NCBI GenBank assembly: GCA_014695255.1
Contig: JACJNX010000016.1
Coordinates: 186,001-250,000, forward strand
Direction: 5' to 3'
Source of the DNA: Cyanobacteria bacterium FACHB-63
GTDB lineage: Bacteria > Cyanobacteriota > Cyanobacteriia > Leptolyngbyales > Leptolyngbyaceae
Length of the DNA: 64,000 bases
Of this stretch, positions 21,018-31,191 are shown piece after piece. Below the pieces are notes generated by a model, which saw only the letters and a program-made list of their open reading frames with translations, was not told the DNA's origin and did no database searches. The translations under genes and the position numbers were made by a program. Position 1 is the first letter of the stretch. Every line of letters begins with the position of its first letter.

Positions 21018-22529
21018 ATGTTCGTTTCCGTTCGTCGGCTTCGGAGCCGAATTGCTTTTGCGATCGTGACAACCAGTTTAGTTGCCCAAGGGCTATGTCA
21101 GAGCGTTGCTAAGGCGGAATTTTTGCCTTATTGCCAGCAGACCATAGGCGCAATCCAGCAGAAAGATGCGGCTCGTCGGGCAGCGTTAAATGCCACCCCT
21201 GAAGCCCAGCAATCTTATCAAAGTTTAATTCGGCAACAGGCAGAGCAACTGCGGCAGTGTCGCAGTCAGAACTGGCTGAAAACTCAGGGGCTTTGGTTGC
21301 GACTGTATGCCTGTGATACGCGACCGGGCGCGATCGATGAGGTATTGGATCGAATTGTCGATCGTGGCTACAACGAGATTTATGTTGAAACATTCTTCAA
21401 CGGACAAGTGTTGCTGCCTGCTGCGAACAATCCAACCGCATGGCAATCGATGGTGCAATCTCCGAATAATGCTGATTTGTTAGCTCAGGTGATTCAGAAA
21501 GGACGCGATCGTGGCTTAAAAGTGTATGCCTGGATGTTTAGCATGAACTTTGGCTACACCTATGCAATCAAGCCTGAAAAGCAAGTGACCTTGTTGCGTA
21601 ATGGTCGCGGACAGACTAGCTTTAGTGCGAATACGGTTGCAGGGCTGAGTACCGATTTAGGCACATTGAACCCGGATGAAGCCTTTATTGATCCGTACAG
21701 TCTGCCTGCGAAGCAGGACTATTACCGCATGGTGCAAGAAGTCCTCAAGCGTAAGCCTGATGGCGTGTTGTTTGATTACATTCGCTATCCCCGCAGTCGA
21801 GGTAAACAATCAATTACAACCGGTGTGCAGGATTTGTGGATTTTTGGAGAGGCATCGAGACAAGCGCTGATCGATCGAGGTTTGAATAACAAAGGGCGGG
21901 AATTAATCAAGCGCTATATCGGTCGTGGATTGATCAGTGCCAGCGATGTTGCGACAGTGGATAAGCTGTTTCCGCGTGAGAAAATTCCGATGTGGCAGGG
22001 ACGCATTCCTAGCGCGATCGAAACCCGTGGCTCTTCGGCTCAGCGAGCAGGAGTTTTGCAAGCAGATTTATGGCGGTTAAGTGTGGCTCATGCCATGCAA
22101 GGTGTGGTTGATTTTCTCAATCTGGCAATCTATCCAGTGCGACAAGCAGGACTGCCAGCAGGAGCAGTGTTTTTTCCAGAAGGCAATCAGATGATCGGGC
22201 AAGGGTATGATTCTCGCTTGCAGCCGTGGGATCGTTTTCCGCGTAATATCGCATGGCATCCGATGTCCTATGCGACTTGTGGGAATGCAAATTGCATTGT
22301 GCAGCAAGTTCAGCGCGTGTTAGCGCAGGCAGCACCAGGAACGGAGGTAAAACCTGTTTTAGCTGGAGTTTGGCAGGAATCGATTAGCAATCGTCCGCCG
22401 TTAGAGGTGCAAATGGAGGCACTACGATCGCTCTCACCGCGCATTTCGGCGATTAGCCACTTTGCTTATTCTTGGCAGGAGCCGCAATCGGATCAAGACC
22501 GTAAATATTGCGCTACCCGACGACTTTAA
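21018..22529 (+). CDS. Secreted GH10-like (GHL10/DUF187-type) protein
   Basis: 503-residue protein with an N-terminal signal segment (SRIAFAIVTTSLVAQGLCQS...AKA), then a helical region (~30-95) and a TIM-barrel-like domain similar to family-10-like glycosyl hydrolases. Recognisable parts are LWLRLYACDTRPGAIDEVLDRIVDRGYNEIYVETFF, KGRDRGLKVYAWMFSMNFG, KRKPDGVLFDYIRYPRS and VKPVLAGVWQES. In GHL10 proteins the FDYIRYPR strand is highly conserved; the substrate is unknown, possibly envelope glycan. The 3' end overlaps the convergent NRPS gene by 4 nt (22526-22529). Confidence 0.78.
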   Translation: MFVSVRRLRSRIAFAIVTTSLVAQGLCQSVAKAEFLPYCQQTIGAIQQKDAARRAALNATPEAQQSYQSLIRQQAEQLRQCRSQNWLKTQGLWLRLYACDTRPGAIDEVLDRIVDRGYNEIYVETFFNGQVLLPAANNPTAWQSMVQSPNNADLLAQVIQKGRDRGLKVYAWMFSMNFGYTYAIKPEKQVTLLRNGRGQTSFSANTVAGLSTDLGTLNPDEAFIDPYSLPAKQDYYRMVQEVLKRKPDGVLFDYIRYPRSRGKQSITTGVQDLWIFGEASRQALIDRGLNNKGRELIKRYIGRGLISASDVATVDKLFPREKIPMWQGRIPSAIETRGSSAQRAGVLQADLWRLSVAHAMQGVVDFLNLAIYPVRQAGLPAGAVFFPEGNQMIGQGYDSRLQPWDRFPRNIAWHPMSYATCGNANCIVQQVQRVLAQAAPGTEVKPVLAGVWQESISNRPPLEVQMEALRSLSPRISAISHFAYSWQEPQSDQDRKYCATRRL

Positions 22530-25500
22530 TCCAAGAGATATTGATTTAACTGTTGCGCCAAGGCTTGTACATGGGGCTGTTTTAGCAAAGAGAGGTGATT
22601 TCCTGGGACTTGATGCACCTGAAGGTGATTGACCAAAGTATCCCAACCTAAAGTTGGATTGCGATCGGATTGTTCAGCCGCTTTAAACAAGACCATCCGA
22701 TGTGGATAAGCTTGAGGCGCATATTGATAGGTCGCTTGAGCATTGGCATAGACAATCCGCAGCAGTGAGGGAATGGCAGATTCTTCTAGGAATCGGAGTC
22801 GAGTTTCTTCGGGAATTAAGCGCAAAATTGTAGACCATTGCCAGCGGGAAAACCAAGAATTTCGAGTTTGTAGTCGATCGAGCGCGAGGGTACTATAGTC
22901 GAGCAAAAATGGCAGTGTTGACCAAAGCGCAGTTCCTAGAAGAAATTTCAGGCTTTGATAAAAGGAAGGTTTATAGCCAGGAGCAGGGGTATCTAGCATA
23001 GCTAAGAGTTTCACTTCATATCCAGCGCGGATAAGTTGTTGTGCCATTTCAAAAGCAACAATGCCACCAAAAGACCAGCCTCCTAGAAGATAAGCTCCAT
23101 CCGGTTGAATGGTTTGGATTGCTTTGATGTAGTAGGCTGCGATCGCTTCAATTCGATTGAGCGGTGGTGTTTTTCCATCCAGCCCCAGCGGTTGCAGACC
23201 ATAAAAGCTGCGATCGCTATTGAGTGCATTTGCAAGTTCTAGATAAGGCAGCACAACGCCAAACATGGGATGAATGCAAAAGAAAGGTTGTTTGCTGGTT
23301 CCGAGTGTGAGCGGAACTAAGGGCGACCAAGACACAGATAGCTTACCGGGAATGTTCGAGGCTGGAGTCGATCGCTGACGGCGGAAAGCGGTTCGATCAA
23401 GTCGAACTAAGGGCGGAATCTTTGAGGTGGGCTGCTGTAAAGTGTCGAGAATGGGGGCGAGTTGCGCGATCGTAGGTGCTTCAAATACGCTCTTTAAGGG
23501 TAGCTCTAGCCCAAACGCATCGCGAACACGAGAAGTCATTTGGGTTGCGAGCAAAGAATGTCCGCCTAGCTCGAAAAAGTTGTCGTGAATTGTGAGCTGC
23601 TTCAGTCTTAGAAGGTTTTGCCAAATTTCTAATAGGGTTGTTTCTGTTGCAGTTGTATGATGAGTTGAACTGTTAGCGATCGCGCTCTCGGTGATATCTT
23701 CGATCCATGTTGGTAGAGCCTGACGATCGACTTTACCATTTACTGTAATTGGAAGTGCTTCTAGAGGTAAAAAGATAGACGGAATCATATATTCCGGCAG
23801 GGTTGGTTTGAGAAATTGGCGCAATTGAGGAACCAATTGCCGAGCAAATTCAGCTTGAAGCGGATTGTTTGTGTATTGTTGCCATGAGTTGATTTTTTCA
23901 GAACGAGAGATAGCTTTAGCATCAATATCTTGTCGGATTAGAGATACATCATAATCACCGGTCTGTGTTTCAGTTGTCCAAGTAAGCTCGACGGTGTAGG
24001 GCAGCAATGCTTCTAAGCTGTACCAATCTTGGGGGTCAATTGTGCATTCAGGCGACTCCTGTAGCTGTTCTCGCATTTGTCCGACTGTTTTTGGTGTTTT
24101 TCCATGACTTAACCAATTTGCAGTTCTAACAGCAGCATTCACTCGACTGTTTTTAACATTCTGAACGATTAGTATTTCTGGCTGAGTCTCGATTAAAACT
24201 TCCTGAATCTTCTCGATATTTACTCGATTTACTTTCCAGTTCAGAGATTGAATTGAAGGGGGTTTTTGAGCCTCATTTATTAGAGGATCTTTGATCTGTA
24301 GTAAAACGTTATAGCGAAACTGCGTCATTTCATTGTGATGCTTCCCGCGTGATAGTCGAATCTGGACAGAACGAATCTGAGGAAATCTATCTTGTAATGC
24401 GTAAAAGAACACTGGATCGATCGCAAGTTCTGGTTCTTCAAAGCGCGATCGATTCACCAACTTTTGCAGGGTCGATCGCTCCATTCCTGAGTCTGCTTTA
24501 CAAAATTGCATCCAGGCATGAAAAGCAGTGAGCAATGATAGATTTCGCACATCACCAATCCATAAAGTTCCGCCTGGTGCTACAGCTTGAATCGCTTCTT
24601 CTAATACCTGCACTAAGTAATCAACACCGGGGAAATATTGCACGATCGAATTCAAAATCACCATATCAAAGGATGCAGGCTCAATCCCTGTAAAATCAGT
24701 GGCAACTCGATGCAATAGTTCCACTTGAGGAAGGGTTGCGAGTTGGCTCTGAATTCCTTCTAAAGCAATCTTTGAAAAATCTGTGCCTACATAGTTCTCA
24801 CAATGCGGTGCAAGCTGAAATAGTAACAATCCAGTACCACAGCCGATTTCTAGCACTCGTTTTGGTTTAAGCGCAAGAATTTGCTGAACCCGATCGTTGA
24901 TCCACTCTTGCATTTGCTCCGGGGGAATTGGCTCTCCGGTGTAGCTACTGTTCCAACCTGTAATGTTAAATTGAGAAGCGGGAGATTGATAGGTTTGGTT
25001 ATAGAGCGATTGCCATTGTTCGACTTGTTGAGTTTGCAGCGACGCTTGCTGTAACTGTTGAAGATCTAAACTAAAGTAAGTAATTAACCGCATCTCATTT
25101 GAGGTTGCTCCAGAAGCAAGAACGGCTGCATCTTGGATGGCAGGATGACGCTGTAGAGTAGCTTCAATTTCACCGAGTTCGACCCGGAATCCTCGAATTT
25201 TGATTTGATCATCAATCCGACCCAGAAACTCAATTGAACCATCAGCGCAATAACAAGCACGATCTCCTGTCTTATAGAGTCTTAAGTCTTTTCTGTGTAT
25301 GAATCGCTCTGTCGTTAATTCCGAGCGGTTGAGATAACCACGAGAAAGCCCTACACCACCAATATACAATTCGCCTGGAATCCCAACAGGAACCGGATTA
25401 AGGTGAGTATCTAATAGATAAACTTGCGTGTTAACAATCGGACGACCGATCAATAGGGGATGATCGCCGGGGTGAAGTTCGGCAACAGTTGACCAGATTG

Positions 25501-27958
25501 TAGTTTCGGTTGGTCCATACGCATTAAAGAACAAGCGATCGACTGCCCAACGATCAACAACCTGCTGAGAGCAAGCTTCTCCCCCTGTAATCAGCACCCG
25601 AAGCGCAGGCAAATCCACCGATGGCAACACCGATAACACGGCTGGCGTTAACAAAGCATGAGTAATTGCATTGTCTTGTAAATAGTGTATCAAAGCGATT
25701 CCAGGGAGCTGAGCAGACTTAGACGGGATGTAGAGTGTGCTGCCAGAACCCAGTGCTAAAGCAACCTCAAAGATAGAAGCATCAAAACTCAAGGAGCTAA
25801 ACTGCAAAACTCGACTGTTATGAGAGAGATGAAACACTCGTTGCTGTGCTTCGACCACATTGCATAATCCTCGATGGGATAAAAGCACGCCTTTAGGTGT
25901 ACCTGTAGAACCAGAGGTATAAATCACATAAGCAAGCTGATCGGGCGTTGAGGGGGAAGCGATCGCACATCCTTCATCAAGCGGAAGCGGTTGATCTAAA
26001 CACACAATCTTTGCAGATGACTCAGGGAGAACATCAATCAGCCAAGACTGTGTAAGCAATACCAAAACCTCAGTATCCATCACCATGAAGCGGAGTCGAT
26101 CGTGCGGATAGTTTGGATCGAGTGGCACGTAGGCTCCTCCAGCCTTGAGGATTCCGAGAATTCCAATCAGCATATCGGCAGAGCGATCGACACACAGTCC
26201 CACTAAACAATCGGCTTGCACTCCCATGTGCCGGAGAATTTGCGCGAGGCGATCGGCTCGCTGATTGAGTTGTTGATAGGTGAGTGTTCCTTGCTCTGAA
26301 ACCAGTGCGATCGCGTTGGGTTCACGCTGCACCTGTGCTTCAAAGATTTGGTGAAAACATTGATTGTTCTGAGGCTTGCTCTGAGTTTGGTTCCACTGAG
26401 CTAGAAGCTGATGTTCTACAGAAGTGAGTAAAGGTAGAGCAGACAGGCGATCGTCTGGGTTTGTCACAATTCCTTCGAGCAAAGTTTGAAAATGACTGAC
26501 TAACCGACTGATGCGATCGCGATCAAACAAATCTGTGCTGTAGGAAATAAACCCGCTTAAGCCTGCTTGCGATCGCCATAAGCTGCGTAATCCGTGTGCA
26601 GGTTCCCACAGATGAACCTCTAAATCAAATCGGGTACTCGCTGATTCTAAGGGTGCGGGCTCTAAGGTCAATCCAGGCAATTCTAGAGATTGCATCGGAG
26701 CATTCTGAAGTGCAAAAGCAACCTGAAACAAAGGATTACGGCTCAGATCTCGCTCTGGATCTAGCTCCTCGACTAGCTTTTCAAACGGTAAATCTTGATG
26801 TTCATAAGCTTCTAACGCGACTTTGCGAACCTGCTCCAATAGCTCACGAAATGTTGGATCACCAGATAAATCCGATCGCATCACTAAACTATTCACAAAA
26901 AAGCCAATTAATCCTTCTACCTCGCTGCGATGGCGATTTGCAATTGGAACACCGATCGCAATGTCTTCCTGGGCTGTGTATCGATGCAGCAATGTCTGGA
27001 ATGCTGCAAGCAGAATCATAAACAAAGTCGTTTCGGTCTGCTGGCTCAGGGCTTCTAATTGTTGAGTCAGCTCTAAAGAAAACTGTAGAGGATAAGTTGC
27101 GCCGCGATAGGTCTGAACGGTAGGACGAGGGCGATCGCTCGGTAAATTCAGTATAGGTAAATCTTGTAGTTGCTTGAGCCAGTACGATCGTTGTTTTTCT
27201 AAAATTTCTCCCTGCAACCAATTGCGCTGCCAGCAAGCAAAATCGGCGTACTGCATAGGAAGCGGCGGTAATTCTAGCGATCGTTCCTCAACAAATGCGG
27301 TGTAACAGTGCGCTAATTCTTGAACCAGCACACCCAACGACCAACCATCTGCAACAATATGGTGCAGGGTGAGTAACAGCATTGCTTCTGTTGAACTAAA
27401 TTCCAGCAATGTGATTCGTAAAAGTGAATCCGTTGCGAGATTAAACGATCGCTGTGCTTCAGTCGTCGCTAATTGTTGGCTCATTTGTTCAGGCGCGATG
27501 ACGTTGAACAACTGCACCACTGATAAATCAACTTTGATCTCTGGTTCGATGACTTGAACAGGATGACCGTCAACCACAGCAAATCGAGTACGAAGGGCAG
27601 CATGACGGCGCACAATTTCATTAAACGATCGCTCCAAAGCCGATCGATTCACCGTTCCTTTCAAGCGAATGGCAGCAGGCACATTGTAGAACGGATTATT
27701 AGGCGCAAGTTGGTACAAAAACCACAATCGTTCCTGGGCAAACGATAAAGGAAATACTTGAGTTTTGGCTTGAGCAGATTGCAAGTATGAAATGATGTCA
27801 GCTTTACGCTCAGCTAATTCCTGGCGTAACTCTTTGGTTAAAGCTCCCTCTGGAGCATTACAGCGTAATCGAACTTCAGCATCATTGCGTCTAATCGATA
27901 GTTGAACATCTAAACTCTGAAGATGAGATACTAATTCAGTAATCGTTCGGCTTGTCAT
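22526..27958 (-). CDS. NRPS module with N-methyltransferase and terminal thioesterase (TubC-C-A(nMT)-PCP-TE)
   Basis: 1810-residue nonribosomal peptide synthetase. Residues 1-60 form a TubC-type docking domain. A condensation domain (~66-510) has an intact HHIVADG at 199-205. The adenylation domain (~535-965) has YTSGSTGTPKG and FNAYGPTETT; an S-adenosylmethionine methyltransferase (VLEIGCGTG at 1035-1043) is spliced in before the final A-domain lysine (K1409 in VNGKVD), the standard N-methylation layout. PCP follows (FFELGGHS, Ser1468), then a type I thioesterase (GWSFG with Ser1629; Asp1656; His1788). The eight-plus-one pocket residues read D-A-F-L-I-G-A-I-W-K, a largely apolar set whose substrate I cannot name. 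It should add and N-methylate one residue, then release the product. The start ATG overlaps the upstream NRPS stop (ATGA), so translation is coupled. Confidence 0.95.
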   Translation of the reverse strand: MTSRTITELVSHLQSLDVQLSIRRNDAEVRLRCNAPEGALTKELRQELAERKADIISYLQSAQAKTQVFPLSFAQERLWFLYQLAPNNPFYNVPAAIRLKGTVNRSALERSFNEIVRRHAALRTRFAVVDGHPVQVIEPEIKVDLSVVQLFNVIAPEQMSQQLATTEAQRSFNLATDSLLRITLLEFSSTEAMLLLTLHHIVADGWSLGVLVQELAHCYTAFVEERSLELPPLPMQYADFACWQRNWLQGEILEKQRSYWLKQLQDLPILNLPSDRPRPTVQTYRGATYPLQFSLELTQQLEALSQQTETTLFMILLAAFQTLLHRYTAQEDIAIGVPIANRHRSEVEGLIGFFVNSLVMRSDLSGDPTFRELLEQVRKVALEAYEHQDLPFEKLVEELDPERDLSRNPLFQVAFALQNAPMQSLELPGLTLEPAPLESASTRFDLEVHLWEPAHGLRSLWRSQAGLSGFISYSTDLFDRDRISRLVSHFQTLLEGIVTNPDDRLSALPLLTSVEHQLLAQWNQTQSKPQNNQCFHQIFEAQVQREPNAIALVSEQGTLTYQQLNQRADRLAQILRHMGVQADCLVGLCVDRSADMLIGILGILKAGGAYVPLDPNYPHDRLRFMVMDTEVLVLLTQSWLIDVLPESSAKIVCLDQPLPLDEGCAIASPSTPDQLAYVIYTSGSTGTPKGVLLSHRGLCNVVEAQQRVFHLSHNSRVLQFSSLSFDASIFEVALALGSGSTLYIPSKSAQLPGIALIHYLQDNAITHALLTPAVLSVLPSVDLPALRVLITGGEACSQQVVDRWAVDRLFFNAYGPTETTIWSTVAELHPGDHPLLIGRPIVNTQVYLLDTHLNPVPVGIPGELYIGGVGLSRGYLNRSELTTERFIHRKDLRLYKTGDRACYCADGSIEFLGRIDDQIKIRGFRVELGEIEATLQRHPAIQDAAVLASGATSNEMRLITYFSLDLQQLQQASLQTQQVEQWQSLYNQTYQSPASQFNITGWNSSYTGEPIPPEQMQEWINDRVQQILALKPKRVLEIGCGTGLLLFQLAPHCENYVGTDFSKIALEGIQSQLATLPQVELLHRVATDFTGIEPASFDMVILNSIVQYFPGVDYLVQVLEEAIQAVAPGGTLWIGDVRNLSLLTAFHAWMQFCKADSGMERSTLQKLVNRSRFEEPELAIDPVFFYALQDRFPQIRSVQIRLSRGKHHNEMTQFRYNVLLQIKDPLINEAQKPPSIQSLNWKVNRVNIEKIQEVLIETQPEILIVQNVKNSRVNAAVRTANWLSHGKTPKTVGQMREQLQESPECTIDPQDWYSLEALLPYTVELTWTTETQTGDYDVSLIRQDIDAKAISRSEKINSWQQYTNNPLQAEFARQLVPQLRQFLKPTLPEYMIPSIFLPLEALPITVNGKVDRQALPTWIEDITESAIANSSTHHTTATETTLLEIWQNLLRLKQLTIHDNFFELGGHSLLATQMTSRVRDAFGLELPLKSVFEAPTIAQLAPILDTLQQPTSKIPPLVRLDRTAFRRQRSTPASNIPGKLSVSWSPLVPLTLGTSKQPFFCIHPMFGVVLPYLELANALNSDRSFYGLQPLGLDGKTPPLNRIEAIAAYYIKAIQTIQPDGAYLLGGWSFGGIVAFEMAQQLIRAGYEVKLLAMLDTPAPGYKPSFYQSLKFLLGTALWSTLPFLLDYSTLALDRLQTRNSWFSRWQWSTILRLIPEETRLRFLEESAIPSLLRIVYANAQATYQYAPQAYPHRMVLFKAAEQSDRNPTLGWDTLVNHLQVHQVPGNHLSLLKQPHVQALAQQLNQYLLD

Positions 27959-30900
27959 AGTTCAATTTCCTCACGATGTCGCGAATTGGTTTGTCCTAAA
28001 GCTTCGATTCTTTGAGCTAATTGCGCGATCGTGGGCGCTTCAAACACCGATCGTAAGGGAAGCTCAACTTGAAAATGATCGCGGATGCGTGAAACAAGCT
28101 GAGTTGCTAACAATGAGTGCCCACCTAGCTCGAAAAAGCTGTCTTGAGTTCCAATCTGTTCGCGCCCAAGCAGTTGAATCCACAGTTCAATCAGGGACGC
28201 TTCTAATGAGGTTGCGGGAAGCACCAAGCTACTTTCTTTTATCCTGCTAAAGCTTGAAATAGGTAATGCTCTAGTGTCAACTTTGCCATTCACAGTCAAA
28301 GGCAGCGCATCTAACATTACAAACCCAGCAGGCAACATATAAACAGGAACTTTAGCCTTGAGAAATGCTCTTAGCTCTTTCTCTGTTATCTCTTCAGAGT
28401 TTTGAGGAACAATGTAGGCAATTAACTGACGATCGTGGTCTATTTCCCGCACCGTGACTACACTGGTCTGTATCTTCGGATGCTGTACTAGAGTTGCCTC
28501 GATCTCACCTAACTCAACTCGAAATCCTCGAATTTTAACTTGGTCATCGATTCGCCCCAAAAATTCAAGATTGCCATCAGGACGATACAACGCTCGATCG
28601 CCCGTCCGATAAAGCTTCAAGTCTCCAATCTGAACAAACCTTTCTGTGGTCAATTCCTGGCGGTTGAGATATCCCTGCGCTAAACCATCACCCCCTAAGT
28701 AAAGCTCACCGCTCATTCCTGTGGGCACTGGATTTAGCTTCGCATCTAATAGATAGACCTGAGTATTGGCGATCGCTTGCCCGATTGGAATGGTCGTTGC
28801 ATTCTCTGACACGCTTTGCACTTCATACCAAGTTGAAAACGTAGTATTTTCTGTCGGACCGTAAACATGAATGAGATGCTGAGGTCTTCCTTGATGCAGC
28901 AGCGATCGTACACACTCCACATTCGCCATCTCACCCCCAAATAATAGAGATTTGAGCGATCGGAAAGCGTCGGGAATCTGACGAATCGTTTGATTGAACA
29001 ATGCCGTTGTCAGAAACAGAATGCTAATTTGATGCTGCTGCAATTGAGCCACAAAATCAGTCGGCAAAAGGGTACTCTCTCGCTCTAGCCCAACTAATCG
29101 CGCTCCGTTCAGTAATGCTCCCCAAACCTCGAAAGTCGCTGCATCAAAGGACAAACTTGCTACCTGTGCAATGCGATCGTTCGGTTCTATCTCAATATAG
29201 TTCGTATCACACACCAATCGACTGATGCTGCGATGAGATACCATGACTCCTTTGGGTGTTCCAGTTGAACCAGAAGTATAAATCACATAAGCAAGCTCAT
29301 TTCCTGTGCAAGAATTGGATAAATTTTCATCCAATTCTTCAGCGATCGCGCTCCACTCCTGCTCTAAACAAATCACTCTAGTTCCGTCGAATCGATCTGC
29401 CCAACCTGCTTGAGTTAACACGATCGCGATTCCCGCATCTTTGATCATGAACTGCAATCGTTCTGGCGGATAGCTTGGATCAAGCGGCACATAAGCACCC
29501 CCCGCTTTTAGCACAGCTAACAGTGCCGCGATCGCTTCAATCCCCCGCTCTAAACAAATCCCAACCGGCATTCCTGCCCGCACACCGTAGCGCTGCAAGT
29601 ATCGCGCTAGCTGGTTACTACCCTGATTTAAAGCTGAATAGGTGAATGATTGATCACCAAATTGAACCGCGATCGCAGTCGGTCTTTGTTTAACCTGTGC
29701 TTCAAACAATTGATGAATTCCGACACTTGCAGGATAGGGCGATCGATGGCTACTCCAATGCTTAAGTAATGCTTGTTGCTCTTGAACGCTTAACAAGGAT
29801 AGTTCAGACAAACAAGCCCCTGGATTCGCAACAATGCTTTCCAATAGGGTCTGAAAATGTTGGCGTAGCAATGCGATCGAGCTTCCATCAAATAAATCAG
29901 TGTTGTAAACAACAATGCCGCGTAATCCATCGGTTTGTTGCCAATCTTTACCCCATAGATTCCGAAAGTTATCGCCGCTCTTCCAAAGATAAACTTCTAA
30001 ATTAAAGCGCGAAGTCTTTGTTTCTAAGTCTACTGGACTCAACACTAAACCCGGTAACACTAATTGTTCCATCGGCGTATTTTGTAGCGCAAATACAACC
30101 TGAAACAGTGGATTCTGCCCTAAGTTCCGAATCGGCTGGAGTTCTTCAACCAGCTTTTCAAACGGCAAATCTTGATGAGCATACGCGGCTAATGTCACCT
30201 TCCGCACTCGATCTAAGAGTTCTCGAAACGTTGGATCGCCTGTTAAATCTGCTCTTAGCACCAAGCTATTTACAAAAAAGCCAATCAAGCCCTCTAACTC
30301 GCTCTGGTGACGATTCGCAACCGGAGAACCGATCGCCAGATCTGTCTGTCCCGTATAGTGATAGAGCAAAGTTTGGAACGCTGCTAACAAGGTCATAAAT
30401 AGCGTGACACCCGCTTCCTGACTTAATTCTTCCAGCGCATCCAATAGTTGTTGTGGTAGCTCGATTAACTGACTCGCCCCTTGATAACGTGGCTCATGCC
30501 CATGAAAGTTTGGTAAATTGAGCGTAGGTAAATCTTTTAACTGCTGCTTCCAATAGTGCAACTGGGTTGTCAATACCTCGCCTTGCAAATACTGCCGTTG
30601 CCAGTGAGCAAAATCCGCATATTGCACAGGCAATTCCGGCAGAACCGCAGGCTTACCGTGAACGATCGCCGCATAAAACTCTCCTAACTCCTGAATTAAA
30701 ACACCGCTCGACCATTCATCAAAAATAATGTGATGCAGCAAAATTAAGAACAAATGCTCTCGATCGTGCAACTGCCAAAGATGCGATCGCAATAGTGCGC
30801 CACCATTCAAATCAAACGGTCGCTCAACCTCTCGCCAAATCTCCTCTACTGCAATGCTCTCCCGAACATTAGCAGGCATTGTTCGTAAATCAGTAAACTC

Positions 30901-31191
30901 CAGTGGAATTTGCGCCGTTTGAGCCACGACTTGAAACAACTGCCCATCAACCTGCTCGAAGGTTGTTCTGAGAATTTCATGCCGCCGAACGATCGCATCG
31001 AGACTTTGTTGAAGCTGCAATCGTTTTAGATCACCCGTCAACCGAAAGACCAAAGGAATACTATAAAGAGAGGCTTCTGGCAAAAGTTGTTCAATAAACC
31101 ATAGGCGCTGCTGAGCAAATGAGGCTGGAAAAATAAAACTCTCTTCAACATCTTTTTGGATCGGCTGATCTGAAATCATTCCCACCTGCAT
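27955..31191 (-). CDS. NRPS module C-A-PCP (first gene of the pair)
   Basis: 1078-residue single-module synthetase. The condensation domain (~20-480) has HHIIFDE at 153-159, where the usual HHxxxDG glycine is Glu. The adenylation domain (~490-985) has YVIYTSGSTGTPKGVM and YGPTENTTF; its pocket residues (D683, A684, F687, F726, L750, G752, V776, T784, F785, K970) read DAFFLGVTFK, like known isoleucine/valine-type codes. The PCP (~993-1066) has ELGGHS with Ser1026. The last residues RHREEIEL are a charged tail suited to bind the TubC docking domain of the next protein. A leading C domain in the first gene suggests either N-acylation of the first residue or an upstream module encoded elsewhere. 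It is transcribed away from acpP with its own promoter region at 31192-31600. Confidence 0.95.
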   Translation of the reverse strand: MQVGMISDQPIQKDVEESFIFPASFAQQRLWFIEQLLPEASLYSIPLVFRLTGDLKRLQLQQSLDAIVRRHEILRTTFEQVDGQLFQVVAQTAQIPLEFTDLRTMPANVRESIAVEEIWREVERPFDLNGGALLRSHLWQLHDREHLFLILLHHIIFDEWSSGVLIQELGEFYAAIVHGKPAVLPELPVQYADFAHWQRQYLQGEVLTTQLHYWKQQLKDLPTLNLPNFHGHEPRYQGASQLIELPQQLLDALEELSQEAGVTLFMTLLAAFQTLLYHYTGQTDLAIGSPVANRHQSELEGLIGFFVNSLVLRADLTGDPTFRELLDRVRKVTLAAYAHQDLPFEKLVEELQPIRNLGQNPLFQVVFALQNTPMEQLVLPGLVLSPVDLETKTSRFNLEVYLWKSGDNFRNLWGKDWQQTDGLRGIVVYNTDLFDGSSIALLRQHFQTLLESIVANPGACLSELSLLSVQEQQALLKHWSSHRSPYPASVGIHQLFEAQVKQRPTAIAVQFGDQSFTYSALNQGSNQLARYLQRYGVRAGMPVGICLERGIEAIAALLAVLKAGGAYVPLDPSYPPERLQFMIKDAGIAIVLTQAGWADRFDGTRVICLEQEWSAIAEELDENLSNSCTGNELAYVIYTSGSTGTPKGVMVSHRSISRLVCDTNYIEIEPNDRIAQVASLSFDAATFEVWGALLNGARLVGLERESTLLPTDFVAQLQQHQISILFLTTALFNQTIRQIPDAFRSLKSLLFGGEMANVECVRSLLHQGRPQHLIHVYGPTENTTFSTWYEVQSVSENATTIPIGQAIANTQVYLLDAKLNPVPTGMSGELYLGGDGLAQGYLNRQELTTERFVQIGDLKLYRTGDRALYRPDGNLEFLGRIDDQVKIRGFRVELGEIEATLVQHPKIQTSVVTVREIDHDRQLIAYIVPQNSEEITEKELRAFLKAKVPVYMLPAGFVMLDALPLTVNGKVDTRALPISSFSRIKESSLVLPATSLEASLIELWIQLLGREQIGTQDSFFELGGHSLLATQLVSRIRDHFQVELPLRSVFEAPTIAQLAQRIEALGQTNSRHREEIEL

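Follow-up and report, generated by a model that had tools for sequence, protein, structure and literature searches.

Several described nonribosomal peptide synthetase (NRPS) systems share traits with a two-gene cassette that we analyzed in a 64,000-nucleotide stretch of Cyanobacteria bacterium FACHB-63 (assembly GCA_014695255.1, contig JACJNX010000016.1, positions 186,001 to 250,000; this whole stretch is hereafter the window). Bimodular NRPS lines with a type I thioesterase (TE) at the end have two modules, a collinear logic and the terminal TE in common with it; unlike them, the cassette is divided between two genes with TubC_N docking, starts with a condensation (C) domain bearing HHxxFDE and has no accessory gene. 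The thaxtomin synthetases also combine two modules with N-methylation and a possible diketopiperazine product, but they have a terminal C domain, two methyltransferases (MTs) and a tailoring P450, whereas the cassette has one MT, no P450-type neighbour and, by Pfam, a TE at its end instead of a thaxtomin-type C domain. The cyanopeptolin synthetase Oci shares with the cassette the adenylation (A) code DAFFLGVTFK for Ile/Val and an N-methylated residue; unlike the cassette, it comprises seven modules, makes a heptapeptide and has the code DAWTIAGVCK (Phe) for its N-methylated residue (PMC2533009). Searches of the open literature, judged by titles and the beginnings of abstracts, with supplements and most subscription journals outside this scope, yielded no paper that we could tie to the cassette or to a cyanobacterial Ile-N-methyl-Leu product. 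The family may already be numbered among the 15 NRPS cluster families with unknown product in PMC4247773.

The cassette is most likely a bimodular NRPS that acts autonomously, starting with an unusual and conserved C domain (C1), and is notable for its conservation and autonomy more than for its architecture. We propose, at a probability of roughly 55%, that it makes Ile-N-methyl-(Leu-like), released by the TE as a linear dipeptide or a diketopiperazine. In the proposed mechanism, the first A domain (A1) would load Ile onto the peptidyl carrier protein domain of module 1 (PCP1), the acidic tail of gene 1 would dock onto TubC_N of gene 2, A2 would load a Leu-like residue that the embedded MT would N-methylate on PCP2, and C2 would form the sole amide bond, leaving the TE to free H-Ile-N-Me-Leu-OH or to permit closure to the diketopiperazine, a cyclisation that the N-methyl amide would promote. 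C1 would not take part in chain elongation; its fold and active site would be retained either for its place in the C-A platform or to serve a donor that is small and soluble. Codes and active sites hardly vary between host families or from one neighbourhood to another, and the cassette is the sole C-domain NRPS in 12 of 29 genomes, which together point to a single defined compound whose use is worth retaining. Because the pair is only ~8.7 kb long and has no apparent helper beyond a phosphopantetheinyl transferase (PPTase; one family match in the window genome), its product is directly testable.

Anatomy of the two-gene cassette

The two adjacent NRPS genes occupy window positions 31191 to 22526 on the minus strand of a genome (G000) of 7.23 Mb in 179 contigs, with completeness listed as 99.98%. 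Two photosystem II family matches in this genome mark the host as a cyanobacterium; of 14 control genomes, Synechococcus elongatus alone has such a match. Open reading frames (ORFs), Pfam matches and direct inspection of the junction confirm the order C-A-PCP followed by TubC-C-A(MT)-PCP-TE with an ATGA stop-start overlap, as the initial annotation had read it, and its view of a complete two-module line is borne out by a relative (G150) in which both modules form one ORF. Pfam spans in gene 1 are residues 21–476 (Condensation), 496–842 (AMP-binding), 896–970 (AMP-binding_C) and 1000–1062 (PP-binding); those in gene 2 are 6–60 (TubC_N), 67–519 (Condensation), 539–876 (AMP-binding), 1036–1132 (methyltransferase core), 1441–1501 (PP-binding) and 1558–1805 (Thioesterase). 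The true start of gene 1 may be the second ATG at 31179, many orthologues aligning only from residue 5. The features, all on the minus strand, are as follows.

27955–31191, minus: NRPS gene 1, module 1 (C-A-PCP), 1078 amino acids; ORF and Pfam, 30 orthologue rows including the window
29764–31131, minus: C1 condensation domain, elongation-like by PDB ranking, without recognisable upstream donor; Pfam, PDB ranking, constraint similar to that of C2
30715–30735, minus: C1 active-site motif HHIIFDE (Gly to Glu); Glu in 30 of 30 rows, a variant shared with fuscachelin C3 (PMC8097023)
28666–29706, minus: A1 adenylation core, code DAFFLGVTFK, predicted Ile (or Val); Pfam, code in 30 of 30 rows (PMC2533009, PMC13122637)
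28006–28194, minus: PCP1 carrier domain; Pfam, GGHSL motif
27958–27975, minus: acidic C-terminal tail REEIEL of gene 1, candidate docking peptide towards TubC_N; all 29 unfused gene-1 rows have an REE tail
22526–27958, minus: NRPS gene 2, module 2 (TubC_N-C-A(MT)-PCP-TE), 1810 amino acids; ORF and Pfam
27779–27943, minus: TubC_N docking domain; PF18563, E = 3.1e-15
26402–27760, minus: C2 condensation domain, canonical HHIVADG; Pfam, DG in all 30 readable rows of 32
25331–26344, minus: A2 adenylation core, code DAFLIGAIWK, predicted Leu-like; Pfam, DAFL[I/V]GAIWK in all 31 readable rows of 32, logic of PMC10590383 at 278/301
23924–25006 (approximate bounds), minus: methyltransferase region inside A2, predicted N-methyltransferase; Methyltransf_12 core, PDB match 5wmm (E = 2.1e-45)
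23456–23638, minus: PCP2 carrier domain; Pfam
22544–23287, minus: type I thioesterase, GWSFG nucleophile motif; Pfam, Ser/Asp/His motifs, nearest PDB entry 4zxh

Both window proteins keep the tallied core motifs of their C, A and PCP domains intact, and complete orthologues conserve them (18 proteins of three- or four-gene loci were kept apart from this tally), and the release domain has its Ser, Asp and His motifs. The single departure, already noted in the initial annotation as a substitution in the first condensation motif, is real: C1 reads HHIIFDEWS against HHIVADGWS in C2. An NCBIfam scan (best 25 rows per protein) placed only TIGR01733, an adenylation-domain family, above its cut-off. 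Relative to the nearest relative, G006, the ratio of nonsynonymous to synonymous substitution rates (dN/dS) was 0.13 for gene 1 and 0.11 for gene 2.

Predicted residues, N-methylation and release

We read the A codes at motif-anchored positions and found both to be of the amino-acid type (Asp235), an observation relevant to the lactone considered in the initial annotation. The module 1 code, DAFFLGVTFK, was invariant in 30 of 30 rows; it is tabled for cyanopeptolin positions bearing Ile or Val (PMC2533009), and PMC13122637 gives it for Ile in suomilide and inhibitors related to it, which supports the Ile/Val-type first residue suggested from the sequence at the outset, and we predict Ile (or Val) as the substrate. 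Module 2 reads DAFLIGAIWK in 27 of 32 rows and DAFLVGAIWK in four, with one unreadable. It differs solely at T278L and A301G from DAFTIAAIWK, the code in the third module of a three-gene variant (G079, G092 and G065), which we take to be close to the Phe code; the second module of that variant has DAFIIGAIWK in the same genomes. In GrsA-PheA, T278M/A301G is reported to switch the preference from Phe to Leu, and T278L/A301G versions bearing an additional mutation or two are described as Leu-responsive with a retained Phe response (PMC10590383, 2023). This precedent, applied to the T278L/A301G difference, predicts Leu or a Leu-like residue as the substrate of A2.

A MT dependent on S-adenosylmethionine (SAM), with its SAM motif intact, lies between the a8 and a10 motifs of A2, as in interrupted A domains, and the best PDB match of this region is an NRPS chain, 5wmm, that likewise carries its MT inside an A domain. 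We take this chain to be the interrupted A domain of TioS, presumably from an organism, pathway and substrate context other than those of the cassette. Position and best match indicate that the MT is probably N-methylating, in line with the N-methylated second residue originally put forward.

In TubC-type docking, an acidic donor tail binds the TubC_N domain of the acceptor. By analogy with this precedent for the tail, the REE terminus that closes gene 1 in every unfused row and the TubC_N at the N-terminus of gene 2 form a putative docking pair. The best PDB match of the TE (4zxh, E = 7.1e-28) does not separate hydrolysis from cyclisation.

The initiating condensation domain and its apparently missing donor

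All 30 gene-1 rows carry HHIxFDEWS in C1 (HHIIFDEWS, n = 25; HHIVFDEWS, n = 5). In a survey of 101 distinct motif contexts, taken from the loci fetched up to then and therefore biased towards cassette loci, Glu occurred in 36, every one a gene-1-type protein of a two-, three- or four-gene locus. This constancy, together with the low dN/dS values, argues that the Gly-to-Glu change is neither chance nor decay, and on these sequence patterns we regard the Glu as a hallmark of the cassette family and not a defect. Fuscachelin C3 (7kvw/7kw0) resembles C1 in having HHxxxDE in place of HHxxxDG; its Glu contacts the acceptor amine, and an E-to-G mutant was still active, improved with Leu and poorer with Gly, with the suggestion that Glu at this site suits small acceptors (PMC8097023). 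By analogy, these data make the substitution in C1 compatible with catalysis. The comparison has limits, in that fuscachelin C3 has Gly as acceptor and an upstream carrier, whereas the predicted acceptor of C1, Ile, is not a small residue of the kind suggested for the Glu site (PMC8097023) and no upstream carrier is seen. The cassette offers a natural test for an initiating C domain that has an HHxxxDE site and no visible donor.

Constraint on C1 is close to that on C2. Identity was 0.744 for C1 and 0.769 for C2 over 28 rows (leaving out G003, whose gene 2 lies on two contigs, the remnant G089, and G256, which lacks the TE His). In a column comparison over 29 rows, 20 columns fixed in C2 were relaxed in C1 against 13 in the opposite direction. 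In the pair with G006, dN/dS was 0.11 for C1 and 0.055 for C2, so that C1 is somewhat less constrained there. The PDB ranking of C1 is similar to that of C2, used as a control, with the same solved C domains on top; chains that we take to be starter C domains ranked last or were absent for C1, so that in this ranking its closest kinship is not with the starter (lipoinitiation) class. No upstream carrier is visible, and C1 most likely does not elongate a chain.

A conserved C1 could instead transfer an acyl group, either small or fatty, from CoA or an acyl carrier protein (ACP) to the nitrogen of Ile-PCP1, giving an N-acyl dipeptide. In keeping with this alternative, which we consider unlikely, C1 retains HH and D under purifying selection, the cassette has fabF and a gene for an ACP next to it in both the window genome and G006, and the window genome encodes a protein resembling fatty acyl-AMP ligases (FAALs), with FAAL matches at 1e-60 in 22 of 29 cassette genomes. 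Set against these are the shared structural neighbours of C1 and C2, with the presumed starter domains low or absent, the lack of a FAAL match at the same threshold in seven cassette genomes (G001, G007, G057, G221, G309, G253 and G177), the location of the window genome's own FAAL among lipid-modifying genes (by reading of neighbouring ORFs), and the confinement of the ACP-fabF neighbourhood to G000 and G006. Within two genes on either side of the cassette no FAAL was recognised, and of two cassette-free members of the genus, G002 has a FAAL match and G005 has none. We therefore reject a FAAL-supplied lipid chain as a general need, and the N-acylated product considered in the initial annotation is not supported as a general claim, although a soluble acyl donor is conceivable.

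The same annotation had raised the possibility that partner modules elsewhere are required. We counted Condensation matches in 29 cassette genomes (27 with complete pairs, G150 and G003) and found exactly two, the cassette's own, in 12 (G006, G091, G057, G221, G204, G253, G358, G165, G177, G230, G153 and G150), of which ten are 99–100% complete and G057 and G221 88%; stand-alone A-PCP loaders without a C domain were not searched for there. Partner NRPS modules are thus not generally needed, and we reject partner NRPS or polyketide synthase (PKS) modules as a general requirement, though not for every genome, a partner being conceivable in the 16 others that, like the window genome, have further matches. 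The third match was below the family cut-off in G309 and partial in G103. Inspection of the window genome for upstream modules, as the annotation had advised, found one partial C-PCP-TE at a contig edge, with no A domain in the available part, and three ketosynthase-family matches (fabF and two partial).

It is very unlikely that the two genes are only the last part of an assembly line split across the genome and depend on upstream modules encoded elsewhere in it. This explanation draws on the resemblance of C1 to an elongation domain, on the C-PCP-TE fragment, on the 17 genomes with further Condensation matches and on one relative (G060) in which a further A-MT-PCP gene immediately precedes the gene-1 homologue, but it has to contend with the 12 genomes without any other Condensation match, with upstream flanks that differ between genomes and with a gene 1 N-terminus in which Pfam finds no TubC_N.

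The C-PCP-TE fragment (L069 4989–6761, G000:C22) lies near small ORFs without Pfam match and near a TPR protein that matches glycosyltransferase-41. Elsewhere in the window genome, an ORF with partial AMP-binding and PP-binding matches (L070 1338–3782, G000:C88) has a short AMP-binding fragment nearby and may be degenerate.

Genomes with no other C domain leave the line's own product as a conceivable donor for C1. A dipeptide held on PCP2 or the TE might be reused iteratively, with C1 joining chains in an enniatin-like manner to give cyclic or linear (Ile-N-Me-Leu)n; this would supply a donor for the conserved C1, and the chain-receiving C domains of three- and four-gene relatives begin similarly without TubC_N. 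We judge it distinctly unlikely: enniatin synthetase has a tandem PCP and a terminal C domain, neither of which occurs in the cassette, a dipeptidyl thioester whose amine is free and whose amide is N-methylated is prone to cyclise to the diketopiperazine, and no direct evidence favours reuse. As a long shot, C1 could be a working part that takes the line's own product and oligomerises Ile-N-methyl-Leu into a conserved physiological compound or signal; if so, the frozen selectivity and the standing as sole C-domain NRPS would indicate such a compound or signal and not a variable defence metabolite.

Our preferred reading, the autonomous line releasing an Ile-N-methyl-(Leu-like) dipeptide or diketopiperazine, also has points that weigh against it. 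The product and the enzyme activities are predictions from sequence. The GrsA numbering of the codes was obtained through motif anchors and not by superposition, and alignments intended to place the cassette A domains on GrsA displayed LgrA entries only. The Leu assignment is a code prediction, and the engineered T278L/A301G domains kept some Phe response (PMC10590383); DAFLIGAIWK itself had no printed precedent in our searches of the open literature, where one match to DAFLIGA occurred, in a paper titled on antifouling compounds. Further Condensation matches bring the total to between 3 and 14 in each of 17 of the 29 cassette genomes. Columns conserved at 95% or more number 215 in C1 and 205 in C2 (29 rows, leaving out G003 and G089), a level of conservation in C1 higher than expected for a passive relic, although its dN/dS in the pair with G006 is twice that of C2. 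Decayed or broken copies of the cassette also exist (e.g., G019, G089, G150 and G256).

Distribution, longer relatives and neighbourhood

Protein searches in 97 relatives and 388 genomes of the class detected nearly full-length relatives of gene 2, and the best loci were examined. At least 27 genomes among these 388, counting the window's, carry complete pairs with all TE motifs, in host families f1, f13, f17, f24 and f27; among the 97 relatives, the same search gave no such match in G002 and G005 of the window's genus. A four-base gene overlap is kept in all 28 relatives with separate genes (26 complete pairs, G256 and G003), as ATGA in 26, GTGA in G091 and TTGA in G227. In G150 the two modules are fused into a single 2984-residue ORF (L113 4224–13178) whose shortened TE has neither the Asp nor the His stretch. 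The TE of G256 is missing its His stretch, and gene 2 of G003 is split over two contigs. Remnant or broken copies were found in G089, G019, G262, G284 and G186; the broken or fragmentary copies in G019, G262, G284, G186 and G008 were left out of the alignments. Decayed copies at L068 and L061 show internal stops (G019) and, in the opened G089 stretch, part of gene 2 alone.

In a gene-2 tree of 35 rows (quick method, SH-aLRT support only, midpoint root; G003 and G089 left out), a fully supported branch separated all 29 two-gene rows, including the fused G150 and G256, from the six rows of three- and four-gene loci. Host families were mixed on the tree, with seven changes for f24, four for f1 and two for f13, and from this mixing we read the history of the cassette as horizontal transfer combined with vertical retention within genera. 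Recombination is described as a key driver of bacterial NRPS gene evolution, with microcystin A domains cited as an example (PMC8097286).

The two-gene cassette forms one branch within a larger family of varying length. The three-gene variant of G079, G092 and G065 (L062–L064) has the order C-A-PCP / TubC_N-C-A-MT-PCP / C-A-PCP-TE, determined by Pfam in G079 and by homology in the other two, and its extra C-A-PCP-TE module has a Phe-like code at all three loci (L062, L063, L064), with a partial relative at L067. G040 carries the first two genes of the variant and a cut third gene, and G060 is a four-gene relative whose A-MT-PCP gene lies at L066 14541–17744. In G009, a more distant relative, the motif of the first C domain lacks Glu.

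Comparison of 285 neighbouring ORFs revealed no gene family that generally accompanies the cassette and no conserved tailoring gene; flanks differ except among close relatives. The largest neighbour cluster, from 10 genomes, apparently consists of response-regulator-like proteins joined through a common domain, and smaller clusters partly reflect close relatives sharing a site (G003 and G004; G165, G177, G230, G253 and G358; the three-gene G065, G079 and G092). The cassette is flanked by acpP-fabF-tkt and a GHL10 gene in the window genome and in G006, fabF and tkt being named from ORF reading. We considered and rejected a functional link with acpP-fabF, the adjacency being limited to these two genomes and fabF being adjoined by other genes in six others (G001, G002, G004, G005, G007 and G009).

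An alpha/beta hydrolase gene recurs near five loci and possibly encodes a processing enzyme; it immediately follows the cassette in G027, G034 and G174, lies at a greater distance downstream in G103 and sits upstream in the G040 variant. The directly downstream copies encode 371–374 amino acids (L051 14098–15213, L057 14246–15361, L097 4369–5493). In the window, the 3' end of gene 2 and the convergent GHL10 gene (ORF 21018–22529) share four bases, at 22526–22529.

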